Source: a virus. Taken from it: DNA of 20,475 nucleotides. Position numbers and translations under genes: made by a program. The stretch spans positions 1 to 20,475 of IMG/VR virus record IMGVR_UViG_3300009788_000351. The stretch is one strand, 5' to 3'. The notes beneath the pieces are model-generated. The model did no database searches, had not been told where the DNA came from, and worked only from the letters and a program-made list of their open reading frames with translations. Shown here one piece after another: positions 1-7,470 of this stretch (its first letter is position 1; the number at the start of each line of letters is the position of its first letter).

Positions 1-292
1 ACGTCGTGTACAGAACGAAGGCCCAACCTCGACGATGCGCCTCGGCGATGAACCGATCGACCTCATCGTCGGACACGTGATCCAGGTCAGCCGCGTAGCA
101 GCCGAAGGCCTCGACATTGACGTTCGCTCGAGAGGTGCTCGGGGGGTAGATCGCGGGACTGAACGCGGGGCACTCGAGCTTCGTGCCGGCGGGGCGGAAC
201 TCGTGTTTGAAGGTCGCCGCAAACGCGTCCCACGACCGCTCGACGCGGATCGGGCGGTTGCTCCGGGCATGGGTGAAAAGCGTCAGCCGCAT
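1..292 (-). CDS. Primase-polymerase-like replication protein, N-terminal part (runs off left edge)
   Basis: Reading leftward from ATG at 292-290 there is an open frame of 97 codons to the window edge. Near residues 69-76 it has the hydrophobic-D-x-D pattern AADLDHVS, followed by a helix and then GWAFVLYTT. This arrangement (catalytic DxD, helix, strand ending in Y-T/S) is typical of the first motif of archaeo-eukaryotic-type primase-polymerase domains, found at the N-terminus of many phage primase-helicases. The start overlaps the end of the XRE gene by 10 bp, suggesting translational coupling; there is no strong Shine-Dalgarno. A replication role would fit the iteron-rich, AT-rich region upstream. 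The C-terminal part, including any helicase domain, lies outside the window, so the family call rests on a short stretch. Confidence 0.55.
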   Translation of the reverse strand, partial: MRLTLFTHARSNRPIRVERSWDAFAATFKHEFRPAGTKLECPAFSPAIYPPSTSRANVNVEAFGCYAADLDHVSDDEVDRFIAEAHRRGWAFVLYTT

Positions 293-492
293 AGCGCCAG
301 GAGCCAATCCGAGCTCACTGCGTACACTGTGGCCAAACGTGCGAGGTCTGTTGCGTTTGGTGTCGTTCGGCCCTGTTCCCAGCTCGCGACCGTCTGCGCG
401 GTTACGCCTATTTTCTCGGCGACTTTCTCTTGCGATAATTGCGCCGCGGCGCGGGCCGCACGGAGCCGTTCGGGGAGCTGAGGGGATAGCAT
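283..492 (-). CDS. Small XRE/Cro-CI family repressor-like protein
   Basis: A 69-residue protein that is almost entirely a helix-turn-helix domain of the XRE type: RAARAAAQLSQEKVAEKIGV (residues 10-29) then TAQTVASWEQGRTTPNATDL. The S-Q-x-x-V/L-A...G-V...V-x-x-W-E-x-G-x-x-x-P pattern is the classic Cro/CI signature. It has no C-terminal dimerisation or cleavage domain, so it resembles Cro more than a full CI. A leftward promoter ends about 2 nt before its ATG, so its mRNA is nearly leaderless. It overlaps the downstream primase-like gene by 10 bp. It probably represses its own promoter and/or sites in the 493-1013 control region; that target is inferred. Confidence 0.85.
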   Translation of the reverse strand: MLSPQLPERLRAARAAAQLSQEKVAEKIGVTAQTVASWEQGRTTPNATDLARLATVYAVSSDWLLALCG

Positions 493-529
493 GGGATCTC
501 TTGATACATGCAGGGTGTAAAAGGGTCAA
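493..529 (-). promoter_or_regulatory. Leftward sigma70-type promoter, nearly leaderless
   Basis: On the minus strand the -35 is TTGACC (plus positions 524-529) and the -10 is TATCAA (501-506), with a 17-bp spacer. The predicted +1 falls at about 494, two bases before the ATG at 492. One CCCACTT iteron (538-546) lies just upstream of the -35. Confidence 0.6.
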
Positions 530-602
530 GTGAAAAGAAGTGGGCCAGGTAAAAGAGAACGATGCCGAGGTGTTAGGCCGATTGACCCACTTTGGGAGGG
601 GT

Positions 603-622
603 GGCCCAGATCAAAGTGGGCC
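603..622. repeat. Inverted repeat GGCCCA/TGGGCC
   Basis: Perfect 6-bp arms at 603-608 and 617-622 are separated by 8 bases. The right arm is part of an iteron. There is no T-tract, so this is more likely a protein-binding site than a terminator. Confidence 0.45.
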
Positions 623-704
623 GAAAAAGTCGAGGGGTTACAGGCGGATAGGGGCCATTTACCCACTTACCCACTTTTTCTAGAGGATAAGTAGGAGGGG
701 AGGG

Positions 705-760
705 TGTTGTTACTATACAGACTTGTATAGATACCAAATTATAGATCCCCCCACTAAATA
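705..760. other. AT-rich segment inside the iteron cluster (possible unwinding element)
   Basis: This stretch is clearly poorer in G+C than the surrounding DNA and sits between the two inverted iteron pairs. On the minus strand it contains a perfect TATAAT (plus 738-743), but I find no good -35 at 16-18 bp, so a promoter is not claimed. Either unwinding of an origin or an operator region is possible. Confidence 0.4.
713..730. promoter_or_regulatory. 18-bp palindrome, operator-like
   Basis: CTATACAGACTTGTATAG has perfect 7-bp arms (713-719 and 724-730) around a 4-bp centre. This size and symmetry is typical of operators for dimeric HTH repressors. The XRE protein encoded at 283-492 is a plausible but unproven ligand. 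Confidence 0.55.
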
Positions 761-821
761 GGGAAAAAGTGGGTAAAGTGGGCCGAGGGGGGTTAAGTGG
801 CTGTTTCGATTGCGGAATCCT

Positions 822-841
822 GGCCCAGCACGATCTGGGCC
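822..841. repeat. Perfect hairpin GGCCCAG/CTGGGCC
   Basis: Arms of 7 bp at 822-828 and 835-841 with a 6-base loop. No T-tract follows on either strand, so an intrinsic terminator is not supported. The arm shares GGCCCA with the iterons nearby. Confidence 0.45.
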
Positions 842-869
842 GTTATCGGTCGATTTACTGATGGTAATC

Positions 870-976
870 TAAGTGCGCGGAACGGTTGGTGGCGGGGTCG
901 TGGGTTCATTTAATTGGGGGCTGCAGGTGCTCGAAATCTTGAGGCTTTTCGGGGGTGTGGCTGTAAGTGCGCGGAA
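870..976. repeat. 13-bp direct repeat TAAGTGCGCGGAA, two copies
   Basis: Exact copies lie at 870-882 and 964-976, 94 bp apart. The second copy ends three bases before the -35 of the promoter driving the gene at 1014, a position typical of an activator site. The DNA between the copies holds no convincing gene. Confidence 0.55.
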
Positions 977-979
977 TGC

Positions 980-1014
980 TTGACTTCGTATTTACATTCG
1001 GTATATTCCCGGTA
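980..1014 (+). promoter_or_regulatory. Rightward promoter with +1 on the start codon (leaderless)
   Basis: TTGACT (980-985), a 16-bp spacer, and TATATT (1002-1007). Six bases separate the -10 from the ATG at 1014, so the predicted +1 is the A of the ATG. No ribosome binding site is present upstream of this start. Confidence 0.65.
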
Positions 1015-1568
1015 TGCAGTTGAGGCCCATCGAGTGGAACGACGAGTGTTCGTGGCTGCGCCAGCCCTGCGACACAGAGAGCCGCTGGAGGGCGTTCCAG
1101 GCCTACCGCGACCAGCCGCCGCCTCGAACCGTGCGAGGCGCTAGCGAGGCTCTGGGGGGGCAGCAGAAACGCACGCTCGAATATTGGTCTACTGAGTGCA
1201 TGTGGCCCGAGCGATGTGAAGAGCTCGACCGATATCTCGAGGCCCAGCGTGTGGCCGTCGTCGTCGACGTCTTGAAGGAAGACGCTCGCGAGACCGCGGC
1301 CGAGCACATAGGGCAACTTCGTGAGGCTCGTGACATCGCGGTCGCGGTCGTGAGGCAGTGGGCGAAGAAGCTCGAGCGCGGCGAAACGATCGAGGGGTGG
1401 TCCCCAAACGACGTGCGCCAGATGATTCGCGACACCATCACCTTGGAACGCCTGGTGAGGGGTGAGGCAACCGAGCGCGTCGAGCACGGGCTTGTGGATC
1501 TGTCGAAGCTCTCGGTTGACGACATGTCCGAGCTCAAGAGGCTGGAAGCGAAGGCGGGGGCGGAGTAG
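1014..1568 (+). CDS. Probable small terminase subunit-like DNA-binding protein
   Basis: A 184-residue, charged, largely helical protein. Residues about 38-70 (VRGASEALGGQQKRTLEYWS, then TECMWPERCEELDRYLE) fit the N-terminal helix-turn-helix seen in many phage small terminases, where a short HTH is followed by a W-S-x(4)-W-x-x-R-x-x-x-x-D pattern. The middle (residues 70-125) is a long helix. Small terminases bind the packaging site and hand DNA to the large subunit. The odd point is the place: the large terminase is about 4.4 kb downstream and this gene has its own promoter and terminator. The start at 1014 is chosen because the promoter's predicted +1 falls exactly on it. It could instead be another phage DNA-binding regulator. 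Confidence 0.6.
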   Translation: MQLRPIEWNDECSWLRQPCDTESRWRAFQAYRDQPPPRTVRGASEALGGQQKRTLEYWSTECMWPERCEELDRYLEAQRVAVVVDVLKEDARETAAEHIGQLREARDIAVAVVRQWAKKLERGETIEGWSPNDVRQMIRDTITLERLVRGEATERVEHGLVDLSKLSVDDMSELKRLEAKAGAE

Positions 1569-1612
1569 GTTGGAGGTACCTCAGGCGTCTGCAGCGCCTG
1601 GGTTAGCATGTG

Positions 1613-1651
1613 CCCCCGTCGGACCTATCGGGACCCCGGCGGGGGTTTTTT
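1613..1651 (+). terminator. Rho-independent terminator after the TerS-like gene
   Basis: An 8-bp stem (1613-1620 with 1638-1645, including one G-U pair) is followed directly by six T residues at 1646-1651. It closes the single-gene unit 1014-1568; a new promoter starts 22 bp later. Confidence 0.75.
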
Positions 1652-1673
1652 CGTGAGGGGTGTCGATTCGGGG

Positions 1674-1719
1674 TTGACCTGATATCAGGATAGGGTTATA
1701 TTCAGATCATGAAGACGAC
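1674..1719 (+). promoter_or_regulatory. Leaderless promoter cassette, copy 1 of a 46-bp repeat
   Basis: TTGACC (1674-1679), a 17-bp spacer and TATATT (1697-1702), then six bases to the ATG at 1709, so +1 is predicted on the A of the start codon. The spacer contains the perfect palindrome CCTGATATCAGG (1678-1689). All 46 bases from the -35 to codon 4 recur exactly at 3248-3293. Confidence 0.75.
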
Positions 1720-2767: not shown

Positions 2768-2952
2768 AACGCTGGAACGAAAAGCAGAAGGCCACGATCG
2801 AGACCCCGGCGATCGATGCGTTCTTGAAAGAGATCGAGGCAGTGTGCCGAAAGCACGGCTTCGCAATCTCGCACGAGGATTCACACGGTGCGTTCGTGGT
2901 CGTCAAGCACACCGAAGGTTCGTACCTCTATGCTGCGGAGGATGGCACGTGA
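2764..2952 (+). CDS. Conserved-looking small phage protein (HGF-SHEDSHGAF motif)
   Basis: A 62-residue protein starting at ATG 2764 in an ATGA overlap with the previous stop. Residues 16-45 (AIDAFLKEIEAVCRKHGFAI then SHEDSHGAFVVV) fit a helix followed by two strands; short phage proteins with a helix plus HGF...SHED.HGAF recur in many phage genomes as uncharacterised genes. No catalytic motif is evident. It lies between the Zn-ribbon gene and the DnaA-like gene in one translationally coupled operon. Confidence 0.7.
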   Translation: MKRWNEKQKATIETPAIDAFLKEIEAVCRKHGFAISHEDSHGAFVVVKHTEGSYLYAAEDGT

Positions 2953-3251
2953 GCGACACTCAACCCACGGTCCCGCCATGGTCGACCGTCGTCGAAGCGC
3001 TCGAGGCCAGGGGGCTTCGCGAGCCCCTCGTGGCCGTGGTGCGACCGATGGGCGTAACCATGTTCGAGGCTTGCGGACGCACCCGGTCAACGCGCATCGT
3101 GGCCGCACGTCACGCCGCGTGGAAGAAGCTGCGGGAGCTCGGCTTTAGCCTGAATGAGATCGCCCGGTTGTGGGGGGTGGATCAATCGAGCGTGTCGTAC
3201 GGGCTGGCCGGGGTGAAGAGAAGGCGGAAAAAGAAAGTGAAAAAGGCTTGA
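2949..3251 (+). CDS. DnaA domain IV-like helix-turn-helix protein
   Basis: A 100-residue protein starting with GTG (GTGA overlap). Residues 50-90 contain RHAAWKKLRELGFSLNEIAR followed by LWGVDQSSVSYGLAGVK. This matches the DNA-binding domain IV of the replication initiator DnaA: R-x-x-A-x-x-L...LSLPEIG, then the signature D-H-S/T-T/S-V-x-x-A/G. The signature is D-Q-S-S-V here, with Q in place of the usual H. It ends in a strongly basic tail (KRRRKKKVKKA). There is no AAA+ domain, so it cannot act as a complete initiator; it may bind DnaA-box-like sequence, block or redirect host DnaA, or act as a transcription factor. Its TGA lies inside the -35 of the next promoter. The similarity is clear by eye, the role is inferred. 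Confidence 0.75.
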   Translation: MSDTQPTVPPWSTVVEALEARGLREPLVAVVRPMGVTMFEACGRTRSTRIVAARHAAWKKLRELGFSLNEIARLWGVDQSSVSYGLAGVKRRRKKKVKKA

Positions 3252-3293
3252 CCTGATATCAGGATAGGGTTATATTCAGATCATGAAGACGAC
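3248..3293 (+). promoter_or_regulatory. Leaderless promoter cassette, copy 2 of the 46-bp repeat
   Basis: Identical over 46 bases to 1674-1719: TTGACC (3248-3253), palindrome CCTGATATCAGG (3252-3263), TATATT (3271-3276) and ATG at 3283 with predicted +1 on its A. The -35 contains the TGA stop of the preceding gene. Confidence 0.75.
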
Positions 3294-4084: not shown

Positions 4085-4311
4085 TGTCAAAACAACCCAT
4101 CGTCGGACCGTACACCGGCGTTACATTCGGTTCGATGATCCGTGAAGCGTTCGACAAGTCGGGGATGACGCAAGTGCAATTCGCCCAGCGGCTGGGAGTG
4201 ACCCAACCCCGGATCGTGGAGATCTTCAATCAAGCGAGCATGACCGAGGCGCTGCTCGATCGGTGCATGGTGGCGCTCAGGGTCAAGTTCGAGGCGAGGA
4301 TCGTAGCGTGA
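4084..4311 (+). CDS. XRE-type helix-turn-helix regulator
   Basis: A 75-residue protein. Residues 15-50 (FGSMIREAFDKSGMTQVQFA, then QRLGVTQPRIVEIFN) form an XRE-type HTH with the usual T-Q-x-x-F/L-A-x-x-L-G-V and recognition helix. There is no other domain. It is translated from a leaderless promoter that overlaps a copy of the shared palindrome, so autoregulation is plausible. It heads the operon that runs through three more small genes and the methyltransferase toward the terminase, with the next start in a 1-bp overlap. It is a candidate for the regulator that binds the shared operator, along with the XRE protein at 283-492. Confidence 0.8.
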   Translation: MSKQPIVGPYTGVTFGSMIREAFDKSGMTQVQFAQRLGVTQPRIVEIFNQASMTEALLDRCMVALRVKFEARIVA

Positions 4312-4541
4312 TGGATCGTCACGAGTTGAGAGCGCTTGCAGCTTCTGCACGCGTGCATCCGACAACCGCAGAGCGGTCTGTGTTTGGGGCACGGGTTAGG
4401 TTCAGTCACGCGAAAAGGATCGCAGACGCGCTGCGTGACATCGACCGCGGGGATCTCATCCGTCGCATACCTCCCGGCCGCGTTGTGCAAGAGGCTGGCG
4501 GTGCGATGCTCGAAGCCGATACCGTAGAGGTGCCCCGATGA
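4311..4541 (+). CDS. Small HTH protein, LacI/Cro-like DNA-binding
   Basis: A 76-residue protein starting at ATG 4311 (TGATG overlap). Residues 4-45 (HELRALAASARVHPTTAERS, then VFGARVRFSHAKRIADALRD) fit the short HTH found in LacI-type and related phage regulators: L-A...A-x-V-x-x-x-T, then a helix ending R-I-x-x-A-L. The C-terminus is short and acidic. It follows directly on an XRE gene, so the pair may form a two-component switch, though paired regulation is only inferred. It lacks any effector-binding domain. Confidence 0.7.
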   Translation: MDRHELRALAASARVHPTTAERSVFGARVRFSHAKRIADALRDIDRGDLIRRIPPGRVVQEAGGAMLEADTVEVPR

Positions 4542-4774
4542 GCTCCTGGCGCGACACTGGGGGCGGCCGCGTCAAGTGCGACGACAGCGGCCGCATGGGC
4601 ACCCTCGTCCCGGGGCATCACGTGGTTGTCGACGGGCAAGACAATCGCACAGTCACGTTCACACGCGCCGAATGGGCCAAGCTCGAGGCGTTGGCGGCGA
4701 AGCGGAGCACCCCGAAGCGGCCGTGGACGGCGCGACAGTGCATCAGGGATTTCGTCAAGAGGTGCCAGCCGTGA
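4538..4774 (+). CDS. Hypothetical protein, 78 aa
   Basis: It starts at ATG in an ATGA overlap with the previous stop and ends in a GTGA overlap with the methyltransferase gene. The sequence has an N-terminal polar part (SSWRDTGGG), a beta-like middle (LVPGHHVVVDGQ, RTVTF) and a C-terminal helix pair (RAEWAKLEALAAKRS, ARQCIRDFVKRC). I recognise no family. The coupling to its neighbours is the main support for it being a gene. Confidence 0.65.
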   Translation: MSSWRDTGGGRVKCDDSGRMGTLVPGHHVVVDGQDNRTVTFTRAEWAKLEALAAKRSTPKRPWTARQCIRDFVKRCQP

Positions 4775-5711: not shown

Positions 5712-5926
5712 TCAGGTTCGTAGATCTGCGACCGGCTGAGATCGTGTGCGTTCGGTTCGCTTTTTGGGACACTATCAGGGATCGTTTCGTGGAGGGCTCG
5801 ACGGGGCAGGGTTGGGAAACGTGGCAAGAGTTTCTTGAAGACATGCCCCCGAACCTCCCCGAGAATACGCGGGCGCGCTTTCGTGGGTTGGTGCCTTCGT
5901 GGGTGGACGAAGAGCTTAGTTCATGA
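5708..5926 (+). CDS. Small acidic protein just upstream of the large terminase
   Basis: A 72-residue protein bounded by ATGA overlaps on both sides. It begins with a strand-like segment (MIRFVDLRPAEIVCVRFAFW) and continues WETWQEFLEDMP, ending in acidic residues. The sequence looks like a compact two-part domain with a C-terminal helix. No family is recognised and no catalytic motif is visible. Its position could suit a packaging accessory, but that is only positional inference. Confidence 0.65.
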   Translation: MIRFVDLRPAEIVCVRFAFWDTIRDRFVEGSTGQGWETWQEFLEDMPPNLPENTRARFRGLVPSWVDEELSS

Positions 5927-7470
5927 CCCAACACTTTCGCATCCCCCCACACGCGCTCGACCGCGAGCTCGTGATGCGAGACGCGCCGGGGTCCCTACAC
6001 CGGTTCGTGCTGATGTGCTTTCGCATCGTCGAGCCTACGGCGTACGTCGACAACTGGCATATCAGGATCTTGTGTGCATACCTCGAAGCCGTGAGCCGGT
6101 GCGAGATCATGAGGCTCGTGATCAACGTCCCGCCCGGGACCATGAAGTCTCTCACGGTGTCGGTGTTCTGGCCGCTCTGGGAATGGATCCACCGGCCCGA
6201 AACCAAGTGGATGTATGCATCTTACGATGCGACCTTGAGCGCTCGCGACGGACGGCGCATGCTCCGCGTGCTCCAAAGCAGGTGGTTTCAAAAGCGGTTT
6301 GATCCGCGCCTGACGGAGCTCCGTCCCGCGGCGACAGACTTCGACAACTCGGCCGGCGGGTTCCGGTTCGCTACCTCGGTCGCCGGCAAAGCGACCGGGC
6401 GACATGCTGATATCCAAGTAGTCGACGATCCGATCAAGCCGTATGACATGCGAGGATCGCTGTCCTTGGGCATGACGAAGAAAGCGATCCAAGCCGTCTC
6501 TACTTGGTGGCGCGAGACGATGTCCAGCCGTCGCGCTGATCCCGAAACGTTCCGCCGGGTGATTGTCATGCAGCGTCTGCACGAAGACGATCTAGCGGGT
6601 GAAATGTTGCGCGAGGGCGGGTGGGTGCACTTGTGCTTTCCGATGCGCGCGGAGCCCGAACAGTTGTGTGCCTGCCGCGATCCCGAGTGCACTCCCGAGG
6701 ATCCGCGGCGGATCGTCGGTGAGCTCTTGTGGCCCGAGCGCTTTCCCGAAGACGTGGTGAAGGAAGATGAAACGACGGGCATGGGCCCCAGCGTCGCCGC
6801 GGCGCAGAACCAACAACGACCCACCCCAGCGTCAGGCGGGATCTTCCAAAAGTCGTGGTTCCGCTACTGGCATCACCAGGCCGGACACTCGGTGCCGAAC
6901 GATCCGAAATTCCCTTGCCGCGATGAAACGTGTTTCGCGTTGCCCGATGAAGGTGTGTGGCTTCAGTCGTGGGATATGACTTTCAAGGGCACGGACGGAA
7001 CGGACTTCGTCGCGGGCGGGGTGTGGCTCTACGACGCGCCGCGGGCGTTCCTGGTGGCTCAGGTGTGCGCTCGTATGTCGTTTGTCGAGAGCTGCCGTGC
7101 GGTGGTCGCGATGTCCGCGCGCTACCCCATGGCGATCACGAAGGCGATCGAGGACAAGGCGAACGGACCCGCGATCGTGAGCGCGCTCGAGCTGCAGATC
7201 TCGGGGCTTGTGCTCGTCAATCCCGAGGGCGGGAAAGAGGCTCGCGCGCATGCGTGCTCAGGCTTGTTCGAAGCGGGAAACGTGTTCATTCCGCACGACT
7301 CGATCGCTCCGTGGTGTCCAGCCTATCGCGCCCAGATGTCCACGTTTCCGCGCGGGGTCAACGATGACATGGTAGATCAGACCACACAGGCGTTGATCCG
7401 TTTGCAGCAGAAACATGTGCCCTTCGCTCAGGCGATGCGTGCCGTAAGAGAGACCTGGAAAAATGGCTAA
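5923..7470 (+). CDS. terL: Terminase large subunit (ATPase and nuclease)
   Basis: A 515-residue protein of normal TerL length. The N-terminal ATPase has a Walker A variant NVPPGTMKS (68-76), a Q/S-Y-D-A-T motif (89-94), a Walker B VVDDP (166-170) and the coupling motif IVMQRLHEDDL (214-224). The C-terminal RNase H-like nuclease has acidic residues in SWDMTFKG (349-356), IEDKANGPAI (409-418) and VNDDMVDQT (479-487). It drives DNA into the prohead and cuts concatemers, with the portal as partner. Three Cys in CACRDPEC (249-256) sit between the domains. The start is in an ATGA overlap and the stop overlaps the portal gene by 8 bp. The likely small subunit is at 1014. Confidence 0.95.
   Translation: MTQHFRIPPHALDRELVMRDAPGSLHRFVLMCFRIVEPTAYVDNWHIRILCAYLEAVSRCEIMRLVINVPPGTMKSLTVSVFWPLWEWIHRPETKWMYASYDATLSARDGRRMLRVLQSRWFQKRFDPRLTELRPAATDFDNSAGGFRFATSVAGKATGRHADIQVVDDPIKPYDMRGSLSLGMTKKAIQAVSTWWRETMSSRRADPETFRRVIVMQRLHEDDLAGEMLREGGWVHLCFPMRAEPEQLCACRDPECTPEDPRRIVGELLWPERFPEDVVKEDETTGMGPSVAAAQNQQRPTPASGGIFQKSWFRYWHHQAGHSVPNDPKFPCRDETCFALPDEGVWLQSWDMTFKGTDGTDFVAGGVWLYDAPRAFLVAQVCARMSFVESCRAVVAMSARYPMAITKAIEDKANGPAIVSALELQISGLVLVNPEGGKEARAHACSGLFEAGNVFIPHDSIAPWCPAYRAQMSTFPRGVNDDMVDQTTQALIRLQQKHVPFAQAMRAVRETWKNG

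Follow-up and report, generated by a model that had tools for sequence, protein, structure and literature searches.

The window analysed here is a 20,475-bp viral record, IMGVR_UViG_3300009788_000351, which represents a partial tailed-phage genome and carries genes for the large terminase subunit (TerL), portal, protease, capsid, sheath, and tape measure. Judged from sequence, the region 538–784 is probably the replication origin of this contractile-tailed phage (a probability of roughly 0.85), with copies of the heptamer CCCACTT acting as putative iterons read by an initiator that the phage itself encodes next door, a primase-polymerase (PrimPol, resembling archaeo-eukaryotic primases) joined to a superfamily 3 (SF3)/D5-type hexameric helicase. 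An earlier note, made from the letters of the window alone, had proposed an iteron cluster around an AT-rich core as a phage origin, and comparison with relatives and a geometry search of viral contigs both support this proposal. The support arises because the layout is kept while the word drifts, because the array stays with a primase-helicase gene, and because a scan for the geometry lands beside primase-helicases.

CCCACTT occurs seven times within 538–782 and once elsewhere, giving eight copies in the 20.5-kb window versus 1.5 expected. The seven cores in both orientations that the earlier note had placed within about 250 bp were all present, and none of 600 simulations (200 each under first-, second-, and third-order Markov models of the window) reached seven copies of any 7-mer per 250 bp, the maximum of six being attained once. 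With copies on the plus strand written as '>' and those on the minus strand as '<', word counting places the iterons at 538–544 (<), 586–592 (>), 614–620 (<), 662–668 (>), 670–676 (>), 767–773 (<), and 776–782 (<), and the fifth and sixth copies enclose a 90-bp AT-rich core (677–766). The first three are outer copies, while the inner four form two tandem pairs, spaced 8–9 bp start to start (8 bp in the left pair) and both aimed at the core; the same left tandem pair is found in the related loci L004, G004, L009, and L105. The two pairs had been described as arranged as inverted copies, which holds for the pairs relative to each other, but each pair is itself a tandem direct repeat. The AT-rich core, a candidate melting site, was confirmed, with the lowest 60-bp G+C content (0.33) at 707–766. 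Further copies with one mismatch start at 689, 750, 795, 871, 912, and 965.

A DNA search with window positions 1–1700 among deposited phages gave zero matches, and the terminase small subunit (TerS) alone or the PrimPol N-terminus alone, used as queries against viral contigs, returned no relatives. A TerL query returned close relatives with a TerL identity of 63–83% and the same PrimPol-XRE/terS arrangement. Seven syntenic loci (the window, L003, L004, L005, G004, L009, and L012) were compared, the dominant words being found by unbiased 7-mer counting per contig, and at each locus a single 7-mer dominates and clusters in the homologous intergenic region. TGTCTCA is present in 6–8 copies in the region and 0–2 elsewhere in L003, L004, L005, G004, and L009, while L012 has CTACTCA (nine in the region, six elsewhere) and ACTCACT (seven in the region, none elsewhere). 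The drifted words of the relatives thus include TGTCTCA/CTCACTT and CTACTCACT, and those of more distant loci are TGTGCTG, TGTTGAC, and GTGTTGG. Since several relatives share a CTCACTT core (four copies each in L005 and L012, three in L003, two in L004, one in L009, and none in the window), CCCACTT lies one transition away from their words. Despite the changed word, inward tandem or single iterons flank an AT core, and the inner gap measures 80–124 bp, as in L009 (5904> 5912> core 6028< 6035<), L004 (179> 187> core 288<), and G004 (44060> 44068> core 44183<). In each relative contig, the homologous region also has the lowest G+C content, or nearly the lowest, of any 100 bp.

In the window, the array sits between a leftward XRE-PrimPol pair and a rightward module headed by terS. 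A primase-polymerase-like gene had been noted next to the repeats; it is present (2–292, minus strand), but it is truncated by the contig end and an XRE/Cro-type helix-turn-helix (HTH) gene (283–492, minus strand; Pfam HTH_3, E 6.4e-16), the first gene of the leftward operon, overlaps its start and separates it from the repeats. The terminase small subunit gene on the far side of the array (1014–1568, plus strand; phrog_6299, E 3e-12), the first gene of the rightward module, was not named in the earlier note. Distant PrimPol-helicase genes (35–42% identity) were used to separate these candidate neighbours. Arrays lie directly upstream of PrimPol with no XRE gene between in L101 (10 TGTGCTG), L102 (eight TGTTGAC), and L105 (seven GTGTTGG), the entire contigs of L102 and L105 gave no HTH_3 match, and no match to TerS was seen near the array in L101, L105, or L119. 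The PrimPol proteins of L119 and L101 are 83% identical, and TGTGCTG is common to both loci.

These distant loci bear on whether the CCCACTT copies are instead operators of the XRE repressor, lying between the divergent XRE-PrimPol and terS units as a switch for immunity or for the early/late transition. In favour of this, the start of the XRE gene lies 46 bp from the first copy, and L003, L005, G004, L009, and L012 keep the gene next to the array; about 15 low-GC phages have an XRE-like gene directly adjoining a CCCACTT array, and a repressor-PrimPol operon is also found in the plasmid pRN1 (PMC4234260). Nevertheless, the arrays of L101, L102, and L105 adjoin PrimPol with no such gene between, and up to 13 sites over more than 400 bp around an AT core would be unusual for an operator. 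The recognition helix does not track the word either: residues in helix 3 differ (HVAT, SSAT, QATT, TPQT) among genomes sharing TGTCTCA, whereas the XRE proteins of G004 and the window are both TxQT yet face different iteron words. The operator explanation is therefore unlikely, and the XRE protein is disfavoured as the reader of the repeats. A packaging (pac) site recognised by TerS is a very improbable explanation: terS adjoins the array both here and in the nearest relatives, but arrays persist without an adjacent TerS match in L101, L105, and L119 and beside primase-helicases elsewhere. Because arrays are kept without XRE or TerS neighbours and the XRE helix does not track the word, the array follows the primase-helicase.

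Some other features were seen in the distant loci. Directly upstream of the PrimPol-helicase gene of L120, an apparent decayed XRE remnant lies at about 5800–5995 (partial HTH_3 match, 16 bits). Eight tandem 11-bp repeats of the GTTCCGCACCA type (L119, 3696–3780) adjoin the TGTGCTG iteron array and are distinct from it. In L108, a helicase-like gene downstream of a distant PrimPol relative is closely followed by 12 GTGTCCC copies (4310–4600), a cluster that is likely another, putative iteron origin.

The PrimPol gene of the relatives is full-length at about 800 aa and comprises an N-terminal primase-like part (phrog_9765, E 8e-12) and a C-terminal SF3 helicase, a DUF5906-like region with a weak Pfam match that contains a Walker A motif LTGxxxTGKT, a Walker B motif CPLVFADE, and an SF3 motif C-like ISANN. 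Its SF3 fold is predicted by an AlphaFold model (mean pLDDT, the per-residue confidence, 85; pTM, the predicted template modelling score, 0.55), for which the best match in a fold search was the C-terminal helicase of the phage NrS-1 PrimPol (E 1.9e-11), followed by poxvirus D5/E5 helicases, the African swine fever virus PrimPol, and PriRep1 of the Staphylococcus aureus pathogenicity island SaPI5. A PDB sequence search with the PrimPol profile gave no match. The genome-contig scan with PrimPol gave distant N-terminal matches only, and for this reason no host was identified. We infer the helicase part of the window's initiator from the relatives, because the window holds only its first 97 aa, which are 41–45% identical (tblastn) to the proteins of L003, L005, L009, and L012; the truncated gene is thus presumably a PrimPol-helicase.

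The likeness to NrS-1 raises the possibility that the CCCACTT copies are primer-start signals read by the PrimPol domain on a single-stranded template, and not double-strand iterons. The NrS-1 polymerase depends on an 8-nt recognition sequence that occurs once on each strand and was proposed to be the origin (PMC7102993), and GP55 of lactococcal phage 1706 likewise starts primers at a short motif (PMC12205980). However, at least seven copies with tandem inward pairs around a core match the needs of hexamer loading rather than those of priming, and the same layout also accompanies DUF927 and RepA-like helicases that have no archaeo-eukaryotic primase (AEP) domain in the same protein. Priming signals on their own are therefore an improbable explanation, although priming and helicase-loading roles could coexist.

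Viral contigs were scanned for the pattern CCCACTT-N1-4-CCCACTT-N75-105-AAGTGGG. The scan returned 49 loci for CCCACTT; the identical geometry gave 27 for TGTCTCA and five for the single control heptamer, which was matched in base composition, and several of the matches were near-duplicates. All five control matches fell inside open reading frames (ORFs), versus three of 49 for CCCACTT and six of 27 for TGTCTCA. The test loci have a median of 6–7 sites, and their cores have a G+C content 0.14–0.17 below that of the locus. An ORF of at least 300 aa lies within 250 bp of the array at 30 loci, and among the 28 of these ORFs that were classified with Pfam, a sample limited to loci with a large ORF nearby, 27 are replicative primases or helicases. 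They belong to the DUF927 (four with a Cch HTH domain), DUF5906/D5_N, VapE with or without Toprim, Prim-Pol+AAA, and RepA-like AAA_25 families. The array is mostly 3' of the gene in these loci, and 5' of it, as in the window, in L124, L139, and L166. These three loci encode large DUF5906 replicases with CCCACTT arrays 21–57 bp upstream of the gene; by eye, the 1338-aa replicase of L124 (9406–13422) combines a helicase, an AEP, and a B-family polymerase, resembling GP55 of lactococcal phage 1706.

One origin architecture, in which tandem heptamer iterons point at one another from the two sides of an AT-rich core measuring about 75–125 bp, may be common to phages with several helicase-primase families (DUF927, DUF5906/D5, VapE, Prim-Pol+AAA, and RepA-like). 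CCCACTT and TGTCTCA recur beside unrelated initiators, which would imply a restricted word vocabulary and origins findable by geometry alone; the odds for this generalisation are about even. If it is true, it contradicts a claim made in 2018 that phage-inducible chromosomal islands (PICIs) are the only known bacterial replicons with this layout.

An origin read by DnaA was also considered, in which host DnaA or a phage protein resembling DnaA domain IV (2949–3251) would bind TTACCCACT. This sequence, at 659, 667, and 768 (minus strand), does match the DnaA box at 7/9 positions as had been reported, but the window contains 30 such matches, and near-consensus TTATCCACA boxes with at most one mismatch are absent from the intergenic region. 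The relevance ascribed to the window's own domain-IV-like protein did not hold up well, since its Bac_DnaA_C match (E 1.7e-6, 28.4 bits) falls below the cut-off of 31.5 and the domain (PF08299) is found in only two of 11 related records. A domain-IV-like gene (77.5 bits) does lie directly beside the array in L101 (4529–4969), and an ORF beside the array in L119 (2901–3782) reads similarly by eye. The words of the relatives (TGTCTCA, TACTCAC, TGTGCTG, and TGTTGAC), however, are not DnaA boxes. Binding by DnaA is thus very unlikely in the window, and DnaA is not supported as a general explanation because the relatives' iterons are unlike DnaA boxes.

Several observations weigh against an origin read by the PrimPol-helicase. 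In a further low-GC lineage of about 17 loci, an XRE-like gene, not a primase-helicase, lies beside the CCCACTT array; a DUF5906 SF3 replicase is encoded elsewhere in five of six contigs tested, which were chosen mostly from this lineage. The window's own initiator gene is cut at 97 aa. Among the distant PrimPol-helicase loci, L104 has no clear array and L120 and L121 have weak ones only. GC skew, a check proposed by the earlier note, was uninformative, with no clean switch in four 45–47-kb contigs and one 21-kb contig. Finally, the pRN1 origin is a stem-loop of about 100 bp located 3' of orf904 and does not consist of iterons (PMC4234260).

Under the preferred reading, in which the PrimPol-helicase reads the iterons, initiator protomers would bind both inward-facing tandem pairs, and two helicase rings would assemble, one on each side of the 90-bp core. 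The core would then melt, and the same polypeptides would unwind and prime outward, giving bidirectional double-hexamer loading. The outer copies may raise the local initiator concentration or tune firing, and possibly also repress the adjacent promoters.

Comparable arrangements are known from satellites and plasmids. Phage P4, a satellite, uses its alpha protein as a primase-helicase initiator and has ori/crr iterons in both orientations, a likeness of organisation. The origins of PICIs are described as an AT-rich region with a set of iterons on either side and an AAA+ primase-helicase initiator encoded next to it (PMC6092414), and in SaPIs, where ori lies downstream of rep, the C-terminal domain of the Rep protein recognises such iterons (PMC7581432). 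The window resembles them in this layout, compared as an arrangement. A full-length AAA+/SF3 primase-helicase initiator beside the array is seen in the relatives, and the match between PriRep1 of SaPI5 and the relatives' PrimPol model is a likeness of fold only. In contrast to the satellites, where ori is described as 3' of the initiator, the window array is 5' of the XRE-PrimPol operon, and unlike a PICI, which lacks a full set of capsid and tail genes, the phage lineage carries its own capsid and contractile-tail genes. NrS-1 shares, on fold comparison, a PrimPol fused to an SF3-like hexameric helicase, and likewise the recognition of a short word (PMC7102993), but carries an 8-nt priming word twice instead of an iteron array with an AT core. 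In pRN1, a small DNA-binding repressor (orf56) precedes the PrimPol-helicase (orf904), following the same operon logic.

What is new is the setting, contractile-tailed phages with the array 5' of the initiator operon, and not the mechanism. An origin layout once called peculiar to phage-inducible islands would be extended to a tailed-phage lineage. For uncultivated phages, the replication origin is hardly ever known, and facing tandem iterons around an AT core may offer a sequence rule for finding them. The drifting words and their initiators also form a natural series for studying the evolution of initiator-origin specificity.

A secondary element lies in the terS-proximal part of the intergenic region. 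By motif comparison, AAGTGCGCGGAACGGTTGG at 871–889 (plus strand), which is also a one-mismatch iteron on the minus strand, has a second copy, AAGTGCGCGGAATGCTTGA, at 965–983 (plus strand), directly upstream of terS. In the relatives, the corresponding intergenic region holds further instances of this degenerate element, approximately AAGTGYGCGGAATCATTGG (L004 321, L005 3292, L009 5796 and 6050, L003 5550, and L012 3925), often in the terS-proximal half, and the enrichment of the element is partly circular because the matrix was built from these same instances. The window XRE protein (69 aa) does not have the zinc-ribbon-like CPHGVPVxxRCxxCE tail found at the end of the XRE proteins of L003 (4931–5227), L005, G004, L009, and L012. 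In addition, a near-identical 30-bp repeat (97%) at 1671–1700 and 3245–3274 is possibly a shared promoter for the genes at 1709 and 3283.
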